From Tannerella forsythia (lineage in GTDB: Bacteria > Bacteroidota > Bacteroidia > Bacteroidales > Tannerellaceae), in assembly GCF_003860135.1 (NCBI RefSeq), contig NZ_RQYN01000020.1:1-45747 (forward strand): a DNA stretch of 45,747 nucleotides. Direction: 5' to 3'. Numbering within the stretch: the first letter of the stretch is position 1; every line of letters starts with the position of its first letter. Position numbers and translations under genes: made by a program. The notes below the pieces were generated by a model. The model saw only the letters and a program-made list of their open reading frames with translations. It was not told the DNA's origin and did not search any database. Of this stretch, positions 2,604 through 34,762 are shown one piece after another.

Positions 2604-5600
2604 TCACTTTCGTGTCCGGACTTTGCGGGCCGCAGCCTTTTCTTTTTGTGCTGCCTTGCGTGCCGCTTCTTTTTCTTTCTGCCGCTGACGGTTCGCCTTT
2701 TCCTTTTCTTTCCGCTCTTTTTCTTTTTGTTTCAGGCGTTCCTTGGCTTCTTTTGTTTTCTGACGACGAAGGGCCTCGCGTTCTTTCAGAAGCTGCTTTT
2801 TCTGCTTGGCCGCCTCTTTCCGTCTCTCTTCGAGTGTCTTTTCTTTCGCTTCCTGTTCAAGACGTTCTTTCGCTTCGGCTTGCGCACGACGCTTCTGCAA
2901 ATATTCGAGCGTGATTTCTTTCGGTTTCACAAGAACGGAGTCTTGCGACGTTACAGTCGTGTCCGGAGAAACAGTCTGTTCTTCTTCCGCTACAGTCTGC
3001 TCCTCGCCTTCGGGAATGTTTTTTTCTTCGTGTTCGGTTTCTTCCGTCTCTTCCTTGACAGGCTCCTGTCCTTTTTCGATGGATGTCTCTCCCGTTTCCT
3101 GTACTGTTTCTTCTTGCGAAAGAGGAGCTTCTTCCGAAATTTCCTCCTTGGTTTCCTTTTGAGGAGACTTCTCTTCTTCGGTAATTTCGGAGCTCTCGGT
3201 AGAAATATTGGCTGCCTGTTCCACAGCAATGTCTTCACGTGATGTCTCCTCCTCATCGGCCGCCACCTGCATCCGCCAGCGGACCACGAGTTCAGGAGCC
3301 TGCGCTCCGTATTTCTCAGCAAAGAACGTCATGTATTCTTCAAGAGTCTTGCCGTGCAGCAGCGTCTCGTAGTTCTCGTCGGAGAAGGGGAAGAACAACA
3401 CGGCACGATCGATGGCTGAGGCATATCCGTCGGGTGCATAGATCATCGCGTAATACTCAAGCGTCTCTTCCAGATTATTGAATCCGCTTACGATCAGCAT
3501 ACTGAACGATCCGGCCTCTTCCATGCTCAGATCAAAGCTTTTGACCTCGAAATGGGCAAAATTGTACGCCGCTACGGCGTAGAGCAACTGGTTGCGGTCT
3601 ACGGCTCCGGTCGGATAGAGCAAGACCATGCGGTGCGGCGACTGCGGGTTATCGACGAACTGCCGCGCCGAGTCGGCCGCCGAAAGCTGACCGTATTCGT
3701 CAAGTCCGAAGCGCAGGTTCCACTTCATGCCCGTCATATTGCCTTGTACCAGTTTGCGACCGCGCAGAATACCTTTGAGCATCTCGTTGGCCAGCTCTGT
3801 CACATCGGCCGACGGATATTTCTCAACCAGCTTCTGCAAAGCGTTTTTGAAACCGGCGGCATCGCCGGACTGCACGTAAGTAAGTGCTTCGACAAACATA
3901 AATTTAGGCATCAGCGTGGCCAGCGGATATGTCTTGCTGAAATGACGGTAGCTGCGTCGTACAAACGACGTGTCGTTCGCCAAGTAGCGGTTATACGTCG
4001 TTTCGTAGAGTGAATCTTGTACCCTGTCCATCATACGGATATTGTATTCGTAGTTCGGGTCGGCTACGGCTTTGGCATAATCGCTTTCGGGAAATATCTG
4101 TATCAGTTTGTTCTTGTATTCCGTCTCTAACGGCTTGTCTTTATACCGAAGTCCCATCAGATACGACTGGAAATAATAATCCATCCGGTACTTGTTTTCC
4201 GGAAAACGACGCTCCAGCTCCCTGAATGTCTCGACCGAGAGTTGTTTGTTTTCCAGTTTGTCCTTGTAGATCATGCCCATGTTGAACAGTCCGTCGGCAA
4301 TGATGATGTTCGAGGCTTCCACGTCTTCTTCGGAGAAAGGAATCTGTTGCAGATAATATTCGCGCGATTTCGGGTCGGACGAAAGTGAATCCATCACCAG
4401 TTGCATCGAATCGACAGGCGCCTCAATCGGGTTGCCTTCTTCATCGAACTGCATCCGATTCTCTTCGTCTACGTGCTGATTTTCGAGCGGAGAGGCCATG
4501 CTCATCGCCTTGTCGCGGCGACGCCAGTCGTCCTGATTGACGCGTTTGCCCCATTTGTTCTGGAACTGTGTCTTACCCTGCGCAACGGTCTGATCGTTGT
4601 AGAAGTAGAACGAGCTTCCTCCCGAATTGACGGAGAGCGACTGAAGATTGGCTTGCATGTTCGGACGTTGACCGAAACCGCTGCCTCTTCCTTCCTGCTC
4701 GGCGAGATAGCGTTCCCGTTCCGCGTCTTCAGCTTCCTTCTTTTCTTTTTCTTTTACTTCTTCGATGATTTTGTCGATCACCGCCAACCGTTCCGATTCC
4801 GGCAGTTTGGCCAGCGCTTGTAAACTGTCTTGCAGATGCACGGCTTCGACATGCACCACCAATTCGTCGAGCGCAGCCGACAGTTGTGCTACACGATCGT
4901 AATCCTTATATTCTTTTCGGATGCCGCTTAAAGCTCCGCTGAAACATGGTTGCGCTTTTACGTACTCCTTTTGAGCGAAATAGATATCGCCCAATTTGAT
5001 CTGACAAATCGCGAGATCGAGCCCTCCCTGCGTACTCTTTTCGATACCGAGAGTGTAATTGGTGATCGCGTTGGCCGTATCGCCGCGGCTCATATACACA
5101 TTCCCGATAGCGGTATAGACCTGATCGAGAAAATCTTTATTCTTGTCGCTTTTGGTCATGCGATGCAGCATCTTCAGCACTTGCGGATAGCGGCTGGGCG
5201 GAAGGACTTCAGCCTGCCGGATACGCGCTGCGAATTCCATCTCGTACGGAGGATTGGAAGAGGCCACTTTGCCGAAAGTCTGATAGGCTGCTTCGTTCTG
5301 TCCGAGTTCCGTCTGTAACTGTCCCAACAGGTAACGCATGCGGGTGCGTTGGCGACGATTCTTTTCATGACCGATCACTTTCTGCAACTCCGGAACCGCT
5401 TCTTCAAACCGTCCGCTCTTCACCAGATAGTCGGCATATACGCGATCATATTCTTTTTGGTTCTGTGCGGGGAATCCGTTTTCTTTCAAGCGTGCCAGTG
5501 CCGTTTCCGTTTCATAGAGCCATCCCAATTCCGCATAGCAGCGCGCCTGCCAGATCCGTGCTGCAGCGACCATCTCCCTGTCAGTCGCATAGTGGCGTGC

Positions 5601-30604: not shown

Positions 30605-31378
30605 CTATTCGATTTTTTTGCGCAGACGCGCCAAATAGCCTCGCATTGCCTCCGTATCGCGCTCGGCGATGATTTTCTGTAATTCGTCCAGCTCGCGCTG
30701 GATACGGTCGATCTGCCTCGGCGTGCGTGGATTAAACAAGATTTCGCTCAGCAGATAATCATCTTCGGAAAGGACGCCTCGCGCGATTTTCATGTGGCGT
30801 CTGAAAGTCGTTCCCGGCGCATCCTGATGTACCATCGTTGCGACAAAGACGAATGTCGAAGCGAACGGAATGCCCAACGAGTAAGCGACGACTTTATCGT
30901 GCTCCTCGAATGTATATTCGAAAATATTCAATTTCAGTCTTTCATATAAATCTTTGAAGAAGATTCTGCCGAGGTGATCGCCTTCGGAGATGATGATGGC
31001 GTTCTCCTGCATCAGGTTGCCGAGGTTCGCGAACGTAGGCCCGAACATCGGATGGGTAGAGACATAGGGAAATCCGCAGTCTTTGTAGAATTCCAGCAGG
31101 TTCGTTTTCACCGAAGCGATGTCGGCAATGATGCAATAGGGCCGAAGGTGCGGCAATACGCTTCGGAAAGCCTCGATCGTTTGGGTCAGCGTCACGCAGT
31201 TGATGACCATCTCGGGGGCAAACGCGTCGATCTCGTCGACCGATTGCATGCGCAAGGCATTGTAGATAAAACGCATCCGTTTGGGGTCTTGTTCAAGTAC
31301 GGCCACCTCGTGGTCGAAACTCAGCAGGTCGGTAAAGAAAGCCCCCATCTTTCCCGCTCCCAAAATCAATATTTTCAT
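30605..31378 (-). CDS. tyrA: Prephenate dehydrogenase
   Basis: 257 residues. An N-terminal NAD(P)-binding fold opens with ILGAGKMGAFF; VINCVTLTQTIEAF, CIIADIASVKTNLLEFY, YVSTHPMFGPTFA and AYSLGIPFAST are the TyrA signature blocks, including the His-Pro-Met-Phe-Gly-Pro segment around the active site. It oxidatively decarboxylates prephenate to 4-hydroxyphenylpyruvate for tyrosine. The protein is short (no ACT domain). It is last in the four-gene minus-strand operon, 12 nt after the DAHP synthase gene. Confidence 0.93.
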   Translation of the reverse strand: MKILILGAGKMGAFFTDLLSFDHEVAVLEQDPKRMRFIYNALRMQSVDEIDAFAPEMVINCVTLTQTIEAFRSVLPHLRPYCIIADIASVKTNLLEFYKDCGFPYVSTHPMFGPTFANLGNLMQENAIIISEGDHLGRIFFKDLYERLKLNIFEYTFEEHDKVVAYSLGIPFASTFVFVATMVHQDAPGTTFRRHMKIARGVLSEDDYLLSEILFNPRTPRQIDRIQRELDELQKIIAERDTEAMRGYLARLRKKIE

Positions 31379-31390
31379 TGTTTGTTCGAT

Positions 31391-32461
31391 TTATTCGTTC
31401 ATGACAATCATTTGCTGGCGTACCGACTCCTCGTGAATCTCTTTCAGGATGGCCAGTACGAAGTCGGGATTCAGGTCCATGGCCATGCCTGCCTTCGTGC
31501 GATTTTCCAGAATCTCTCCGTAGCGAGGCGTTTGCAGTACCGGCATTTGGTGTTCTTTTTTATATACCCCGATCTCTCGCGAGATGCGCATGCGTTTGGC
31601 CAGCAGCTCAAGCAGATTCTCGTCGATCCCGTCGATTTGTCGGCGCAATTCGTGCAGATTCTCGGTCGTCTGATTCGACTCGCGGATGACGAGCAGGTTC
31701 AGTACATAATCCAGCACATCGGGTGTAATCTGCTGTGCCGCATCGCTCCACGCGTGGTCGGGAGCGCAATGCGATTCGATGATCAACCCGTCGAAATTCA
31801 AGTCCATCGCCTGCTGACAGAGTGAGGCGATCAGTTCGCGTTTGCCTCCGATATGGCTGGGGTCGCAAATGATCGGTAAGTTCGGCATGCGGCGACGCAA
31901 CTCGATGGCGATATGCCAGAGCGGAAGATTGCGATACATCTTCTTGTCGAACGAACTGAACCCGCGATGTACCGCCCCGATGCGGTGGATGCCCGCCCCG
32001 TAAAGCCGCTCGATGGCGCCGATCCATAGCTCCAGATCGGGATTGACCGGGTTTTTGACCAGCACGGGTATGTCGACCCCTCGCAGCGCGTCGGCTACAT
32101 CTTGCATGGCAAACGGATTGACGGCTGTTCGCGCACCGATCCATAAAACGTCGACTCCGGCCTTTAAGGCTTCAAAAACATGATCTCTCGTGGCCACCTC
32201 GGTAGCGACGTACATGCCCGTCTCTTCCTTTACCTTTTTCAACCATTGCAGTCCAATGGTGCCTACTCCTTCAAAGCCGCCGGGTTTGGTTCGAGGCTTC
32301 CAGATACCCGCACGAAAGATACGAATGCCGATGGCGGCCAATCCTTTGGCCGTAGTCAAGACCTGCTCTTCGGTTTCGGCACTGCACGGTCCGGAAATCA
32401 CGAGCGGACGCTTGTCTTCGATTCCCGGTAATAAAATAGATTGTAGTTCTAACTGTTCCAT
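31391..32461 (-). CDS. DAHP synthase fused to type II chorismate mutase
   Basis: 356 residues from the ATG at 32461 (MEQLELQSILLPG); an in-frame ATG at 32488 is less likely. Residues about 1-260 are 3-deoxy-7-phosphoheptulonate synthase of the type that resembles KDO8P synthase: VISGPCSAETEEQ, RAGIWKPRTKPGGFEG, TEVATRDHVFEA, WIGARTAVNPFA, VKNPVNPD, ICDPSHIGGKRE and IESHCAPDHAWSDAAQQ. Residues about 270-356 are an AroQ chorismate mutase (LHELRRQIDGIDENLLELL, RMRISREIGVYKKE). The fusion catalyses the first shikimate step and the branch to prephenate, and mutase-linked feedback is common in this class. Confidence 0.94.
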   Translation of the reverse strand: MEQLELQSILLPGIEDKRPLVISGPCSAETEEQVLTTAKGLAAIGIRIFRAGIWKPRTKPGGFEGVGTIGLQWLKKVKEETGMYVATEVATRDHVFEALKAGVDVLWIGARTAVNPFAMQDVADALRGVDIPVLVKNPVNPDLELWIGAIERLYGAGIHRIGAVHRGFSSFDKKMYRNLPLWHIAIELRRRMPNLPIICDPSHIGGKRELIASLCQQAMDLNFDGLIIESHCAPDHAWSDAAQQITPDVLDYVLNLLVIRESNQTTENLHELRRQIDGIDENLLELLAKRMRISREIGVYKKEHQMPVLQTPRYGEILENRTKAGMAMDLNPDFVLAILKEIHEESVRQQMIVMNE

Positions 32462-32497
32462 ACACCTTATTTTTTTTCTGTTTATCAAAACTTCGTT

Positions 32498-33706
32498 TTA
32501 TTGTTTTCGTATACGGTTTACCCGTTCCAGCGCTTCGGCCAGCTGCTCGTCTTTGCAACAGAGCGACAGCCGTACATAGCGTTCGCCCGCACTGCCGAAA
32601 ATAAATCCGGGTGTGATAAAGACCTTAGCTTCGCGCAGTACACGATCGGCCAGCGCTTCACCGCTTATTTCCGTATCGGCGATCTTTCCCCAGAGAAACA
32701 TACCCACTTGCTGCTCGTCGTAGGTACAATTCAAGGCTTCCATGATTTGCCCGGCCAACTTGCGACGTCCCCGATAGATACGGTTCATCTCGGCATACCA
32801 AGCCGGCGGTGCATTCAACGCTTCGACTACGGCCGACTGCATCGGGCGAAATTGCCCTGAATCGACGTTACTCTTCACTTTCAGAATCCATTGTACGAAC
32901 CGCGCGTTCGACACCAGCATCGCCATACGCCATCCGGGCATGTTGTGCGCTTTGCTCATCGAATTAAGCTCGACAGCGATTTCTTTGGCTCCTTCTACGC
33001 GCAGGATGCTACGCGGATGATCGTTGAGGATGAAGCTGTACGGGTTATCGTGACAGATCACGATTCCGTGGCGACGGCCAAAAGCGATCAGCCGTTCGAA
33101 CAGAGCCTCGTCTCCGTCGGTACCGGTCGGCATATTCGGGTAGTTCGTCCACATCAGTTTGATGCGGGCGAGGCCGCTGGCCTTTCGCTCGTCCACAATC
33201 CGTTCCAGCGCGTCGAAGTCGGGTTGCCAGCCGTTCGATTCGTGTAGCTCGTAGGCGATGAGGTCTGCCCCGACAAGCCGGCTCACCGAATTGTAGGTCG
33301 GATAGCCCGGATTAGGCACGAGCACGCCGTCGCCCGGGTTGAGGAAAGCCATGGAGATATGCAGAATCCCTTCTTTCGATCCGATAAGCGGCAGGATTTC
33401 CGTTTCGGGGTCTGCCTCTACGCCGAACCATCGCCGATACCATCCGGCATAGCTGTGCCGCAGTTCGGGAATGCCTGTATAAGGTTGGTAACCGTGCACA
33501 TCCGGTCGGCATGCTTCGCGACAGAGCGTGGCGATGGCTTCGTCGGACGGCGGCAAGTCGGGACTTCCTACGCCAAGGCTGATCACACGCATTCCCGCGG
33601 CGTTCATTGCGGCGACTTCTTTCAGTTTCTTTGAGAAATAATATTCCTGCACGCTGTCTACACGCGTAGCGGGCATAACATCATAAACCTTGTTTTCCTT
33701 CTGCAT
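32498..33706 (-). CDS. PLP-dependent aminotransferase, probably aromatic
   Basis: 402 residues, class I fold. Motifs: LGVGSPDLPPSD, YQPYTGIPELRHSYAGWY, LIGSKEGILHISMAF, NPGYPTYNSVSRLVGA, NYPNMPTGTDGD, CHDNPYSFIL, and the PLP-lysine block NSMSKAHNMPGWRM. It resembles LL-diaminopimelate/aspartate-type aminotransferases, but its place between prephenate dehydratase and DAHP synthase-chorismate mutase points to transamination of phenylpyruvate and 4-hydroxyphenylpyruvate; that role is inferred from context. It overlaps the end of pheA by 26 nt, so translation is probably coupled. Confidence 0.88.
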   Translation of the reverse strand: MQKENKVYDVMPATRVDSVQEYYFSKKLKEVAAMNAAGMRVISLGVGSPDLPPSDEAIATLCREACRPDVHGYQPYTGIPELRHSYAGWYRRWFGVEADPETEILPLIGSKEGILHISMAFLNPGDGVLVPNPGYPTYNSVSRLVGADLIAYELHESNGWQPDFDALERIVDERKASGLARIKLMWTNYPNMPTGTDGDEALFERLIAFGRRHGIVICHDNPYSFILNDHPRSILRVEGAKEIAVELNSMSKAHNMPGWRMAMLVSNARFVQWILKVKSNVDSGQFRPMQSAVVEALNAPPAWYAEMNRIYRGRRKLAGQIMEALNCTYDEQQVGMFLWGKIADTEISGEALADRVLREAKVFITPGFIFGSAGERYVRLSLCCKDEQLAEALERVNRIRKQ

Positions 33707-34523
33707 ATTCTCCTAAAATTTTCAAATCCTTCGTCAGCGGCATAATCGCATCCAGCGCTTGTTTGTAGCGTGGATAATCCGAAAACGTCAGATTGACGTA
33801 AAACAAATATTCCCATTCGCGCCCGATAATCGGCAACGACTGTATTTTCGACAGATTCATATCATAGAACGAGAGGATCGTCAGTACTTTCGAGAGGCTG
33901 CCGGCCGTATGTGGCAAGGAGAAGACGAGCGAGGCCTTGTTCTTCGTCACTCCTTCAAGGAGTTCGGAAGCCATCGACGGCGTGGCCACGGCCAGAAAGC
34001 GCGTATAGTTGCGTTTGTTCGTCTCGATGCCTTCGGCCAGTACTTCCAGTCCGTACATCTCGGCTGCCCGACGCGCACAGATAGCGGCATGACCGTTCAT
34101 TTTCTCCGCGGCGATTCGTCGTGCGCTGCCCGCTGTGTCGTCCATTTCGACGAGTTTGACATGCGGAAGCGTCGCGAGGAAATCATCGCATTGCATCAGT
34201 GCGATCGGATGCGAATTGACTTCGGTAAGGTCGGATATTGTCGTTTTCGGCAGTGCGGCGAGTGAGTGCATGATACGTAATTTATACTCCCCCGCTACTA
34301 CGCATCCGCTCTGCCGAATCAGCTCGTGATTCTGCAACAGACTGCCGGCAATCGTGTTCTCGATCGCCATGATTCCGACCGTCCGGTCGTCGGACGCGAC
34401 TTTTCGTACAAGCTCCTTGAACGTCTCGCACGGTACTAACTCGATCGGTTCGTCTTCGAAATAGCGATGTGCCGCTACATCATGATACGAACCGGCTACT
34501 CCTTGTATGGCCACTTTTCTCAT
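33681..34523 (-). CDS. pheA: Prephenate dehydratase with ACT domain
   Basis: 280 residues. The catalytic part (1-180) begins VAIQGVAGSYHDVAA and carries MAIENTIAGSLLQNHELI, HPIALMQC, DTAGSARRIA, AICARRAAEMYGLEVL and the TRF motif (NYTRFLAVAT) that is essential in this family. Residues about 190-280 are an ACT domain (SLVFSLPHTAGSLSKVL, KIQSLPIIGREWEYLFYV) for phenylalanine feedback. The enzyme converts prephenate to phenylpyruvate. It is first in the operon and lies 30 nt downstream of the attenuator terminator, so its expression is expected to depend on the leader at 34553-34762. Confidence 0.95.
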   Translation of the reverse strand: MRKVAIQGVAGSYHDVAAHRYFEDEPIELVPCETFKELVRKVASDDRTVGIMAIENTIAGSLLQNHELIRQSGCVVAGEYKLRIMHSLAALPKTTISDLTEVNSHPIALMQCDDFLATLPHVKLVEMDDTAGSARRIAAEKMNGHAAICARRAAEMYGLEVLAEGIETNKRNYTRFLAVATPSMASELLEGVTKNKASLVFSLPHTAGSLSKVLTILSFYDMNLSKIQSLPIIGREWEYLFYVNLTFSDYPRYKQALDAIMPLTKDLKILGEYAEGKQGL

Positions 34524-34552: not shown

Positions 34553-34585
34553 AAAAAAAAAATCCCGCCATTCACATGGCAGGAT
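34553..34585 (-). terminator. Attenuator terminator in the pheA leader
   Basis: On the minus strand ATCCTGCCAT and ATGGCGGGAT form a 10-bp stem (one G-T pair) with loop GTGA, followed directly by a run of ten T. The arm bases TCCTGCC (34578-34584) are also complementary to GGCAGGA inside the leader-peptide gene (34646-34652), which gives an alternative antiterminator pairing. It lies between the leader peptide and pheA, not at the end of a gene. Confidence 0.88.
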
Positions 34586-34640
34586 CTTTTTTTAATGTCT
34601 AATACCCCTTATGGTACTTTCTTAGATTGTTTTACACATA

Positions 34641-34706
34641 TCAAGTCCTGCCTTTATCTCTACCAAGATAAAAGTAATAATACTTGTAGGTGTAAAATCG
34701 TTTCAT
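34641..34706 (-). CDS. Tyr/Phe-rich leader peptide of the pheA operon (21 residues)
   Basis: The minus strand has ATG at 34706 and TGA at 34641-34643, giving 21 residues that begin MKRFYTYKYYYFYLG and end DKGRT. Six Tyr and two Phe lie within residues 4-13. The ATG is about 27 nt downstream of the -7 box. The last codons contain GGCAGGA, the antiterminator arm. A ribosome stalled on the Tyr/Phe codons would leave that arm free to pair with TCCTGCC and break the terminator; a ribosome reaching the stop would cover it. This is the logic of classical amino-acid attenuation, inferred here from sequence. Too short for a normal gene search. Confidence 0.85.
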   Translation of the reverse strand: MKRFYTYKYYYFYLGRDKGRT

Positions 34707-34732
34707 TTTTGTTTACTTGATTATATCAGGTG

Positions 34733-34762
34733 CAAAGATACATCACCTTTTTTAACATGCAA
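34733..34762 (-). promoter_or_regulatory. Promoter of the pheA leader and operon
   Basis: TTG (34760-34762 on the minus strand) is 19 nt upstream of TATCTTTG (34733-34740), a full match to the Bacteroidota -33/-7 pattern. Transcription would start near 34728, about 20 nt before the leader ATG. Confidence 0.82.

Follow-up and report, generated by a model that had tools for sequence, protein, structure and literature searches.

A putative leader-peptide attenuator rich in tyrosine and phenylalanine codons precedes the pheA operon of Tannerella forsythia and of most related Bacteroidales examined

The window (the whole 45,747-nucleotide stretch of Tannerella forsythia DNA that was analysed) carries four consecutive genes for aromatic amino acid biosynthesis on its minus strand (Table 1). 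The earlier note on this DNA, made from the sequence alone, assigned to this operon the phenylalanine branch, the tyrosine branch and the shared first step, and the domain matches bear this out, with a prephenate dehydratase (PheA), an aminotransferase, a DAHP synthase-chorismate mutase fusion (AroF/CM) and a prephenate dehydrogenase (TyrA). Relatives were collected with a PheA protein search that gave 580 confirmed stretches; the top 80 were kept, all with titles naming Bacteroidales or unclassified Bacteroidia. The gene order pheA-aminotransferase-aroF/CM-tyrA is complete in 69 of these 80 (67, plus two with an extra upstream match). The remaining 11 comprise five loci that stop at or near the locus end (L003, L018, L031, L034 and L041), two without tyrA (L047 and L058), and four with incomplete operons (L036, L046, L050 and L080).

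Between the promoter-like element and pheA, the window contains all the parts expected of a classical attenuator. The promoter-like element (a TTG, 19 nt and TATCTTTG), the 21-residue leader with its Tyr/Phe block, and the exact complementarity of GGCAGGA to a TCCTGCC lying inside a terminator with ten T, all described in the earlier note, can be read directly from the sequence. The TTG-N19-TATCTTTG element is presumably an instance of the Bacteroidota -33/-7 promoter consensus. The terminator has a predicted energy of -22.1 kcal/mol (z -6.9), a stability attained in 0 of 200 shuffles, and the pheA ATG (34523) lies 29 nt past the T run. A hairpin that the earlier note did not contain, designated 1:2, is built from the last control codons and overlaps the start of the antiterminator arm by two bases. 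The bases that follow it (about 34642-34652, GGCAGGAGUUU followed by G), and their counterparts in relatives, resemble the sites at which RNA polymerase pauses in a hairpin-dependent manner. The AGTACC/GGTATT spacer hairpin of the earlier note does fold in the window, but it is missing from a consensus fold of 34 sequences, in which only the terminator appears; it is therefore not regarded as conserved, and was dropped as a functional part.

Table 1. Features of the pheA leader region and of the operon downstream in the window
Feature	Position	Strand	Basis and remarks
Promoter-like element: TTG (34762-34760), 19 nt, TATCTTTG (34740-34733)	34733..34762	-	sequence reading
Leader ORF: 21 codons, MKRFYTYKYYYFYLGRDKGRT, and TGA; ATG at 34706, stop at 34643-34641	34641..34706	-	sequence reading
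Control codons: residues 4-13, 6 Tyr and 2 Phe	34668..34697	-	sequence reading
1:2 hairpin: 34674-34665 with 34660-34651, 10 bp, -8.5 kcal/mol, z -4.1	34651..34674	-	fold
Antiterminator arm GGCAGGA, segment 2	34646..34652	-	sequence, covariation
Spacer hairpin AGTACC/GGTATT (34618-34613 / 34606-34601)	34601..34618	-	window fold only
TCCTGCC, core of terminator 5' arm, segment 3; exact complement of GGCAGGA	34578..34584	-	sequence, covariation
Intrinsic terminator, segments 3:4: hairpin and T10 (34562-34553)	34553..34592	-	fold, sequence
pheA, prephenate dehydratase	33681..34523	-	PF00800, E 2.6e-52
Class I/II aminotransferase	32498..33706	-	PF00155
DAHP synthase-chorismate mutase fusion	31391..32488	-	PF00793 and PF01817; mechanical TTG start, true start may be further in
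tyrA-like prephenate dehydrogenase	30605..31378	-	PF02153

Including the window, 81 regions upstream of pheA were compared, and 76 of these could be assessed. The five left out have no upstream DNA (L001), are masked (L010) or are cut (L030, L039 and L061), although parts of the element are visible in the remnants of L010, L030 and L061. An aromatic-rich leader and a terminator precede pheA in 72 of the 76, the Tyr/Phe-rich short ORFs that the earlier note proposed looking for in relatives. Records from Bacteroides, Phocaeicola and Parabacteroides are among the carriers, with leaders such as MNRFSFTYFFYYFYFSRVKAGVCM (L011, Parabacteroides chinchillae) and MKALYNTYFFFFYYFYFSNKVKREFVCVR (L060, Phocaeicola vulgatus). 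As a control, all other mechanically called ORFs with a length of 150 aa or more were taken from L001-L080 and L134-L162 (632 in total), and the 420 nt upstream of each were scanned; an aromatic-rich ATG short ORF occurs there in 6 of 632 cases, and such an ORF followed by a terminator in 0 of 632. The pair is missing from four assessable sequences (L036, L046, L080 and L050), all of which have incomplete operons despite more than 3 kb of further sequence; among the 72 carriers, the operon is incomplete in two (L047 and L058), and five more are cut by locus ends. In L050, the promoter box and the terminator are kept while the leader ORF is gone, an arrangement like that of a decayed attenuator.

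The leaders have several features in common. A TAnnTTTG box is located 5' of the leader ATG in 66 of the 67 sequences with enough upstream DNA, compared to 4.5% of shuffled stretches. The 15 nt preceding the ATG are 59% A, with a Shine-Dalgarno-like motif in 2 of 72. The last six codons of the block, taken over all 72 leaders, comprise 233 Phe, 194 Tyr and 5 other codons (427 of 432 are Tyr or Phe), and both amino acids are represented in every leader. A sample of the order as a whole, with 149 genomes, contains PheA in 61 and AroF-CM in 141. Among the 61 PheA genomes, leader and terminator were detected in 48 by the strict rule used in the control and in 50 by a looser one, with two more (L100 and L113) recognized by eye; three loci (L232-L234) lie at contig ends, and the pair is missing in 6 of 58 (L183, L184, L186, L220, L226 and L231).

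The two arms of the proposed antiterminator are preserved as a pair. The search for the 7-nt arm was limited to 8-28 nt past the first base of the last Tyr/Phe codon, as an unlimited search took A/T-rich matches in some loci. Within this range, the arm matches the terminator core at 7 of 7 positions in 59 leaders, at 6 of 7 in 12 and at 4 of 7 in one (L076); in shuffled segments, matches of 7/7 and 6/7 are found in 0.2% and 4.3%, respectively. The commonest variants are GGCAGGA/TCCTGCC (31), AGCGGGA/TCCCGCT (21) and GACAGGA/TCCTGTC (7), followed by rarer ones, and when arms are paired with the differing cores of other loci, 7/7 is found in 58 and 6/7 in 762 of 3416 combinations. In many relatives, the pairing between the arms runs well past 7 bp.

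Compensatory changes in GGCAGGA/TCCTGCC, which the earlier note had put forward as a check, were assessed in an alignment (A2) of 34 of the 72 sequences, chosen by eye for spread prior to counting. In this alignment, 96.6% of cells are paired and 36 are doubly changed, each value matched by 0 of 500 shuffles, and the covariation of 0.374 compared to 0.198 in shuffles is likewise reached by 0 of 500. Two other measures are unexceptional: there are 3 doubly changed pairs, compared to 2.6 in shuffles, a count that 326 of 500 shuffles attain, and 5 further pair types, compared to 6.9, a count that all 500 attain. Three of five covariation measures therefore lie beyond all shuffles and two do not. 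Relatedness inflates the shuffle test. A slide control, which is free of that effect, gives a covariation of no more than 0.14 when the arms are shifted by 1-3 columns. The terminator helix behaves similarly in the covariation test.

The position of the arm is also largely constant. With the first base of the final Tyr/Phe codon as the reference point, the arm offset is 13-16 nt in 67 of 72 leaders; the others are 10, 12, 18 and 18, with one unplaced. The leader stop codon is more variable, being located 5' of the arm in 18 of 72 and 21-33 nt past the arm start in most Bacteroidaceae. The arm is thus tied to the Tyr/Phe block and not to the stop codon, which indicates that it is kept as RNA and not as peptide. 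The location of the arm in the last leader codons, as described in the earlier note, holds for the window but not for every relative. Masking of the arm must therefore take place during ribosome passage and cannot be confined to the stop, the point named in the earlier note.

The 1:2 hairpin pairs the last Tyr/Phe codons (mostly UUU UAC UUU) with the segment immediately 5' of the arm. Over 72 leaders its mean z is -3.1, with z below -1 in 68, and it overlaps the arm by 1-2 nt in 67. The base that pairs, in the folds, with the third position of the penultimate Tyr codon follows the codon used, being G in 62 of 62 leaders with TAC and A in 5 of 5 with TAT. This conserved hairpin fits either a protector or a pause hairpin, and may contribute to pausing.

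Folding was modelled at equilibrium with RNA parameters for 72 sequences, with a ribosome stall or a masked arm imposed. Before the 3' arm of the terminator is made, a stall at the last codon gives an antiterminator probability above 0.5 in 71 of 72; with the ribosome absent, the antiterminator still forms in 55 of 72, with a probability of 0.98 in the window. In the full RNA, the terminator is dominant in 71 of 72 without a ribosome, and in all 72 when the arm is masked. For A-site positions from codon -5 to codon 0, the antiterminator then has a mean probability of 0.37-0.42, dropping to 0.20 at +1 and 0.00 at +2, and this drop coincides with the end of the Tyr/Phe block. A stall at the last codon gives a value above 0.5 in 32 of 72, and antitermination at equilibrium is predicted to be only partial in the set as a whole (0.42). 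For the window, the terminator wins in the full RNA at each stall position (antiterminator 0.00), and antitermination must accordingly depend on the order of folding. Of the two alternative structures that the earlier note expected for the window, the antiterminator is therefore obtained before the 3' arm is present, but not in the full RNA. Release of the arm on stalling and its masking on passage agree with the spacing and the folding curve of the set, and in the window with the state that precedes the 3' arm. Given the antiterminator in 55 of 72 without a ribosome and the overlap of 1-2 nt, the 1:2 hairpin is a weak guard, and a leader that is not translated might be read through.

The element is very likely a transcription attenuator in which the ribosome senses the supply of charged tRNA-Tyr and tRNA-Phe, in line with the Tyr/Phe attenuator that the earlier note proposed, and the Tyr/Phe-rich leaders and covarying arms of the relatives support this reading. 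Transcription of the leader would start at a promoter of its own, and ribosomes would translate it in the wake of RNA polymerase. When Tyr or Phe is scarce, the ribosome would stall within the Tyr/Phe block, covering segment 1 and blocking the 1:2 hairpin, with its front edge just short of GGCAGGA; this arm could then pair with TCCTGCC ahead of synthesis of the terminator 3' arm, and the polymerase would proceed into pheA-aminotransferase-aroF/CM-tyrA. When both amino acids are ample, the ribosome would advance by one or two codons and cover the arm, so that the terminator forms. The sequence comparison supports the leader, the promoter box, the terminator, the covarying antiterminator, the 1:2 hairpin, the spacing, and the match between codons and operon content; we infer translation, stalling, ribosome-polymerase coupling and the direction of the response.

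The codon content of the leaders appears to follow the content of the operons. The fraction Tyr/(Tyr+Phe) is 0, 0, 0.14 and 0 for stand-alone pheA genes, has a median of 0.44 in fused operons (n=72), and has a median of 0.625 in operons without pheA (n=14). In Mann-Whitney comparisons with the fused set, p is 3.6e-4 for stand-alone pheA and 8.8e-9 for operons without pheA, values that are overstated, as the 18 unfused block ends were set by eye, the rows are related, and there are only four stand-alone cases. Seven pheA genes have AroF on another contig; the blocks of four (L113, L115, L185 and L187) are Phe-only or Phe-dominant, and the other three (L183, L184 and L186) have no leader. Ten loci led by an aminotransferase gene or tyrA and lacking pheA contain 14 Tyr-containing leaders, with one each in L091, L096, L111, L114, L195 and L197 and two each in L118, L131, L188 and L199. 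PheA is encoded elsewhere in five of these ten genomes, and none was found in the other five. In L199, the blocks contain Tyr and Trp but no Phe. Eleven further AroF loci (L189-L194, L196, L198 and L200-L202) have no such leader within the stretch, outside which the start of the operon may fall. The few cases available support leaders that are Phe-only with a lone pheA and Tyr-rich without pheA. The window leader is itself atypical, with a Tyr share of 0.75 that is the highest of the 72 and exceeds the median for operons without pheA, a Lys within the aromatic block, and an arm offset of 18.

Related leaders are also found beyond the Bacteroidales. In a sample of the phylum (148 genomes, with PheA in 128), all 32 PheA genomes of the same class were read, and 28 of these other Bacteroidia have a leader before pheA, 26 with a detected terminator (L139 and L158 lack one); no leader was found in L141, L150, L167 and L168. 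Of 95 genomes from other classes, 17 were read, and leader and terminator are present in three (L135, L136 and L152), which came from the 30 best PheA matches, and not in the other 14. In a midpoint-rooted PheA tree of 54 rows, a group of 38 rows (36 with a leader) is separated from one of 16 rows (none) with a support of 100/100. The PheA sequences of L135, L136 and L152 fall within the leader-bearing group, which is consistent with movement of the operon together with its switch into other classes. Shuffling of single leaders is a weak test at the class level (p at or below 0.05 in 16 of 32), and a pooled swap test was therefore used; the match between arm and terminator averages 5.9 nt for own pairs and 4.3 nt for swapped pairs (p 2e-4, n=32).

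Some of these leaders depart from the simple Tyr/Phe arrangement. A Trp codon is located in or at the block, as judged by eye, in 13 of 32 class-level leader-terminator pairs (L138, L143-L147, L149, L151, L153, L154, L159, L160 and L165), which all lie outside the Bacteroidales and would fit a count of all three aromatic amino acids. Tandem leaders, each with its own terminator, precede pheA in 9 of the 61 order-sample loci (L089, L095 (the same as L117), L102, L106, L110, L124, L127, L128 and L224), and also in L134 and L164. In L089 and L117 (the L095 genome), the matching arm of each leader is its own and differs in sequence, and the arms of L127 and L128 match weakly.

Many leaders end their block in an FYF or YFYF pattern, as might be expected if the leader peptide itself arrested the ribosome in response to free Tyr or Phe, with no counting of charged tRNA by codons. 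What is conserved, however, is the composition of the block and not its order, since poly-Phe, Tyr-rich or Trp-containing blocks take its place in other operons and clades. The residues that follow the block are variable, with almost none in the 18 short leaders, and the recurring UUUUACUUU can also be accounted for by the 1:2 hairpin. Nascent-peptide arrest is therefore considered very improbable.

An RNA switch that binds a protein or metabolite (a riboswitch, a T-box or the target of an antitermination protein), with an incidental short ORF, might also be considered, as a terminator with a competing antiterminator is typical of such classes, and as the antiterminator is predicted to form without a ribosome, before the 3' arm, in the majority of sequences. 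At gathering scores, however, no Rfam family is found in the window, and only tRNA is found in 18 related loci; in addition, the helices detected are those of the attenuator, and the codon content tracks that of the operon. The likelihood of such a switch is judged slighter still than that of peptide arrest. The sub-threshold matches in the window, Thr_leader (26.5 of 55) and BTnc060 (26.5 of 228.9), are far below the cut-off and were set aside, as was RF01859 Phe_leader (15.1 bits against a gathering score of 55, E 6.5), a family to which the element does not belong. Equating BTnc060 with the terminated leader was likewise abandoned, as the family is not matched at gathering in 13 Bacteroidaceae, Prevotellaceae and Parabacteroides loci. 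In L118, a sub-threshold match to MicX (2644-2823, minus strand; 30.9 of 75 bits, E 0.0033) lies over the tandem Tyr-rich leaders, and is probably a chance fit to two hairpins.

The least credible alternative treats the leader as a small protein or sRNA with a function of its own, and the terminator as an unregulated stop whose one effect is to lower expression. It could draw on the leaderless L050, but it is at odds with the covarying arms, with reading frames that end before the arm in a quarter of the leaders (18/72), and with the fixed distance to the last Tyr/Phe codon. The parts of the element are real, and it is very probably functional.

The source genome offers some context for this regulation. 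In its assembly (rated 99.98% complete), the HisG and TrpE N-terminal families have no match, and it is accordingly probable that the organism is an auxotroph for His and Trp in which the synthesis of Phe and Tyr, and its regulation, have been retained. A search of the same genome for a his leader gave 16 matches to a His-codon-run pattern, with none convincing among the 12 loci read.

Classical attenuation is known mainly from Proteobacteria, where the short, Phe-rich pheL leader is followed by an antiterminator and a terminator ahead of pheA. The proteobacterial pheA/pheST attenuator (RF01859) and the element discussed here both have a leader ORF with codons for the end product, an antiterminator that competes with a terminator, and a location before pheA. 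They differ in the mixture of Tyr and Phe codons, the TAnnTTTG box and the A-rich start with very few Shine-Dalgarno-like motifs found here, and in the operon, which here has Phe, Tyr and first-step genes. Leaders that count several amino acids made by one operon are familiar from Escherichia coli thrL (Thr and Ile) and ilvL (Ile, Val and Leu); those concern other amino acids in another phylum, and in the present family the mixture of Tyr and Phe varies with the content of the operon.

Within the phylum, a study of Flavobacterium psychrophilum reports strong clues that amino-acid operons there are preceded by leader-peptide attenuators, and describes structured 5' elements in front of pheA and hisG, conserved in Flavobacteriaceae and with no Rfam match (PMC9723704). 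Tyr/Phe codons, arms and covariation are not described in the passages concerned. Long 5' UTRs with short ORFs reminiscent of leader peptides are mentioned for Bacteroides thetaiotaomicron in PMC7366714. The tandem attenuators of the Salmonella mgtCBR operon (PMC3641672) place two leader short ORFs before one operon, as in L089, L095 and other relatives; unlike mgtCBR, the window has a single leader, and both members of the tandem pairs in its relatives are aromatic-rich. Related predictions may be contained in Lopatovskaya 2010 (Mol Biol 44:128), cited in PMC4833913. No Tyr/Phe leader attenuator in Bacteroidota was described in the open-licence papers searched. Leader-peptide attenuation of amino-acid operons as such had already been reported in F. 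psychrophilum (PMC9723704), and what is added here is a probable Tyr/Phe attenuator that is unusually widespread.

On balance, we lean towards an ancient aromatic attenuator that extends through the class Bacteroidia, with a mixture of Phe and Tyr (and, in many cases, Trp) codons that has been retuned by selection as operons were split or lost genes, and with tandem copies in some lineages; its persistence would imply functional coupling of ribosome and RNA polymerase on leaders without a Shine-Dalgarno sequence. The interest of the system lies in its spread, its codon logic and the question of coupling. A complete attenuator with covarying arms appears to precede the aromatic operon in most of the Bacteroidales examined, with leaders of the same type in the great majority of the other Bacteroidia read (28/32). 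The attenuator may serve as a native reporter for transcription-translation coupling in organisms whose leaders start without a Shine-Dalgarno sequence, and the leaders form a natural series, their codons varying along with the genes of the operon, that would make amino-acid sensing testable by leader swaps.
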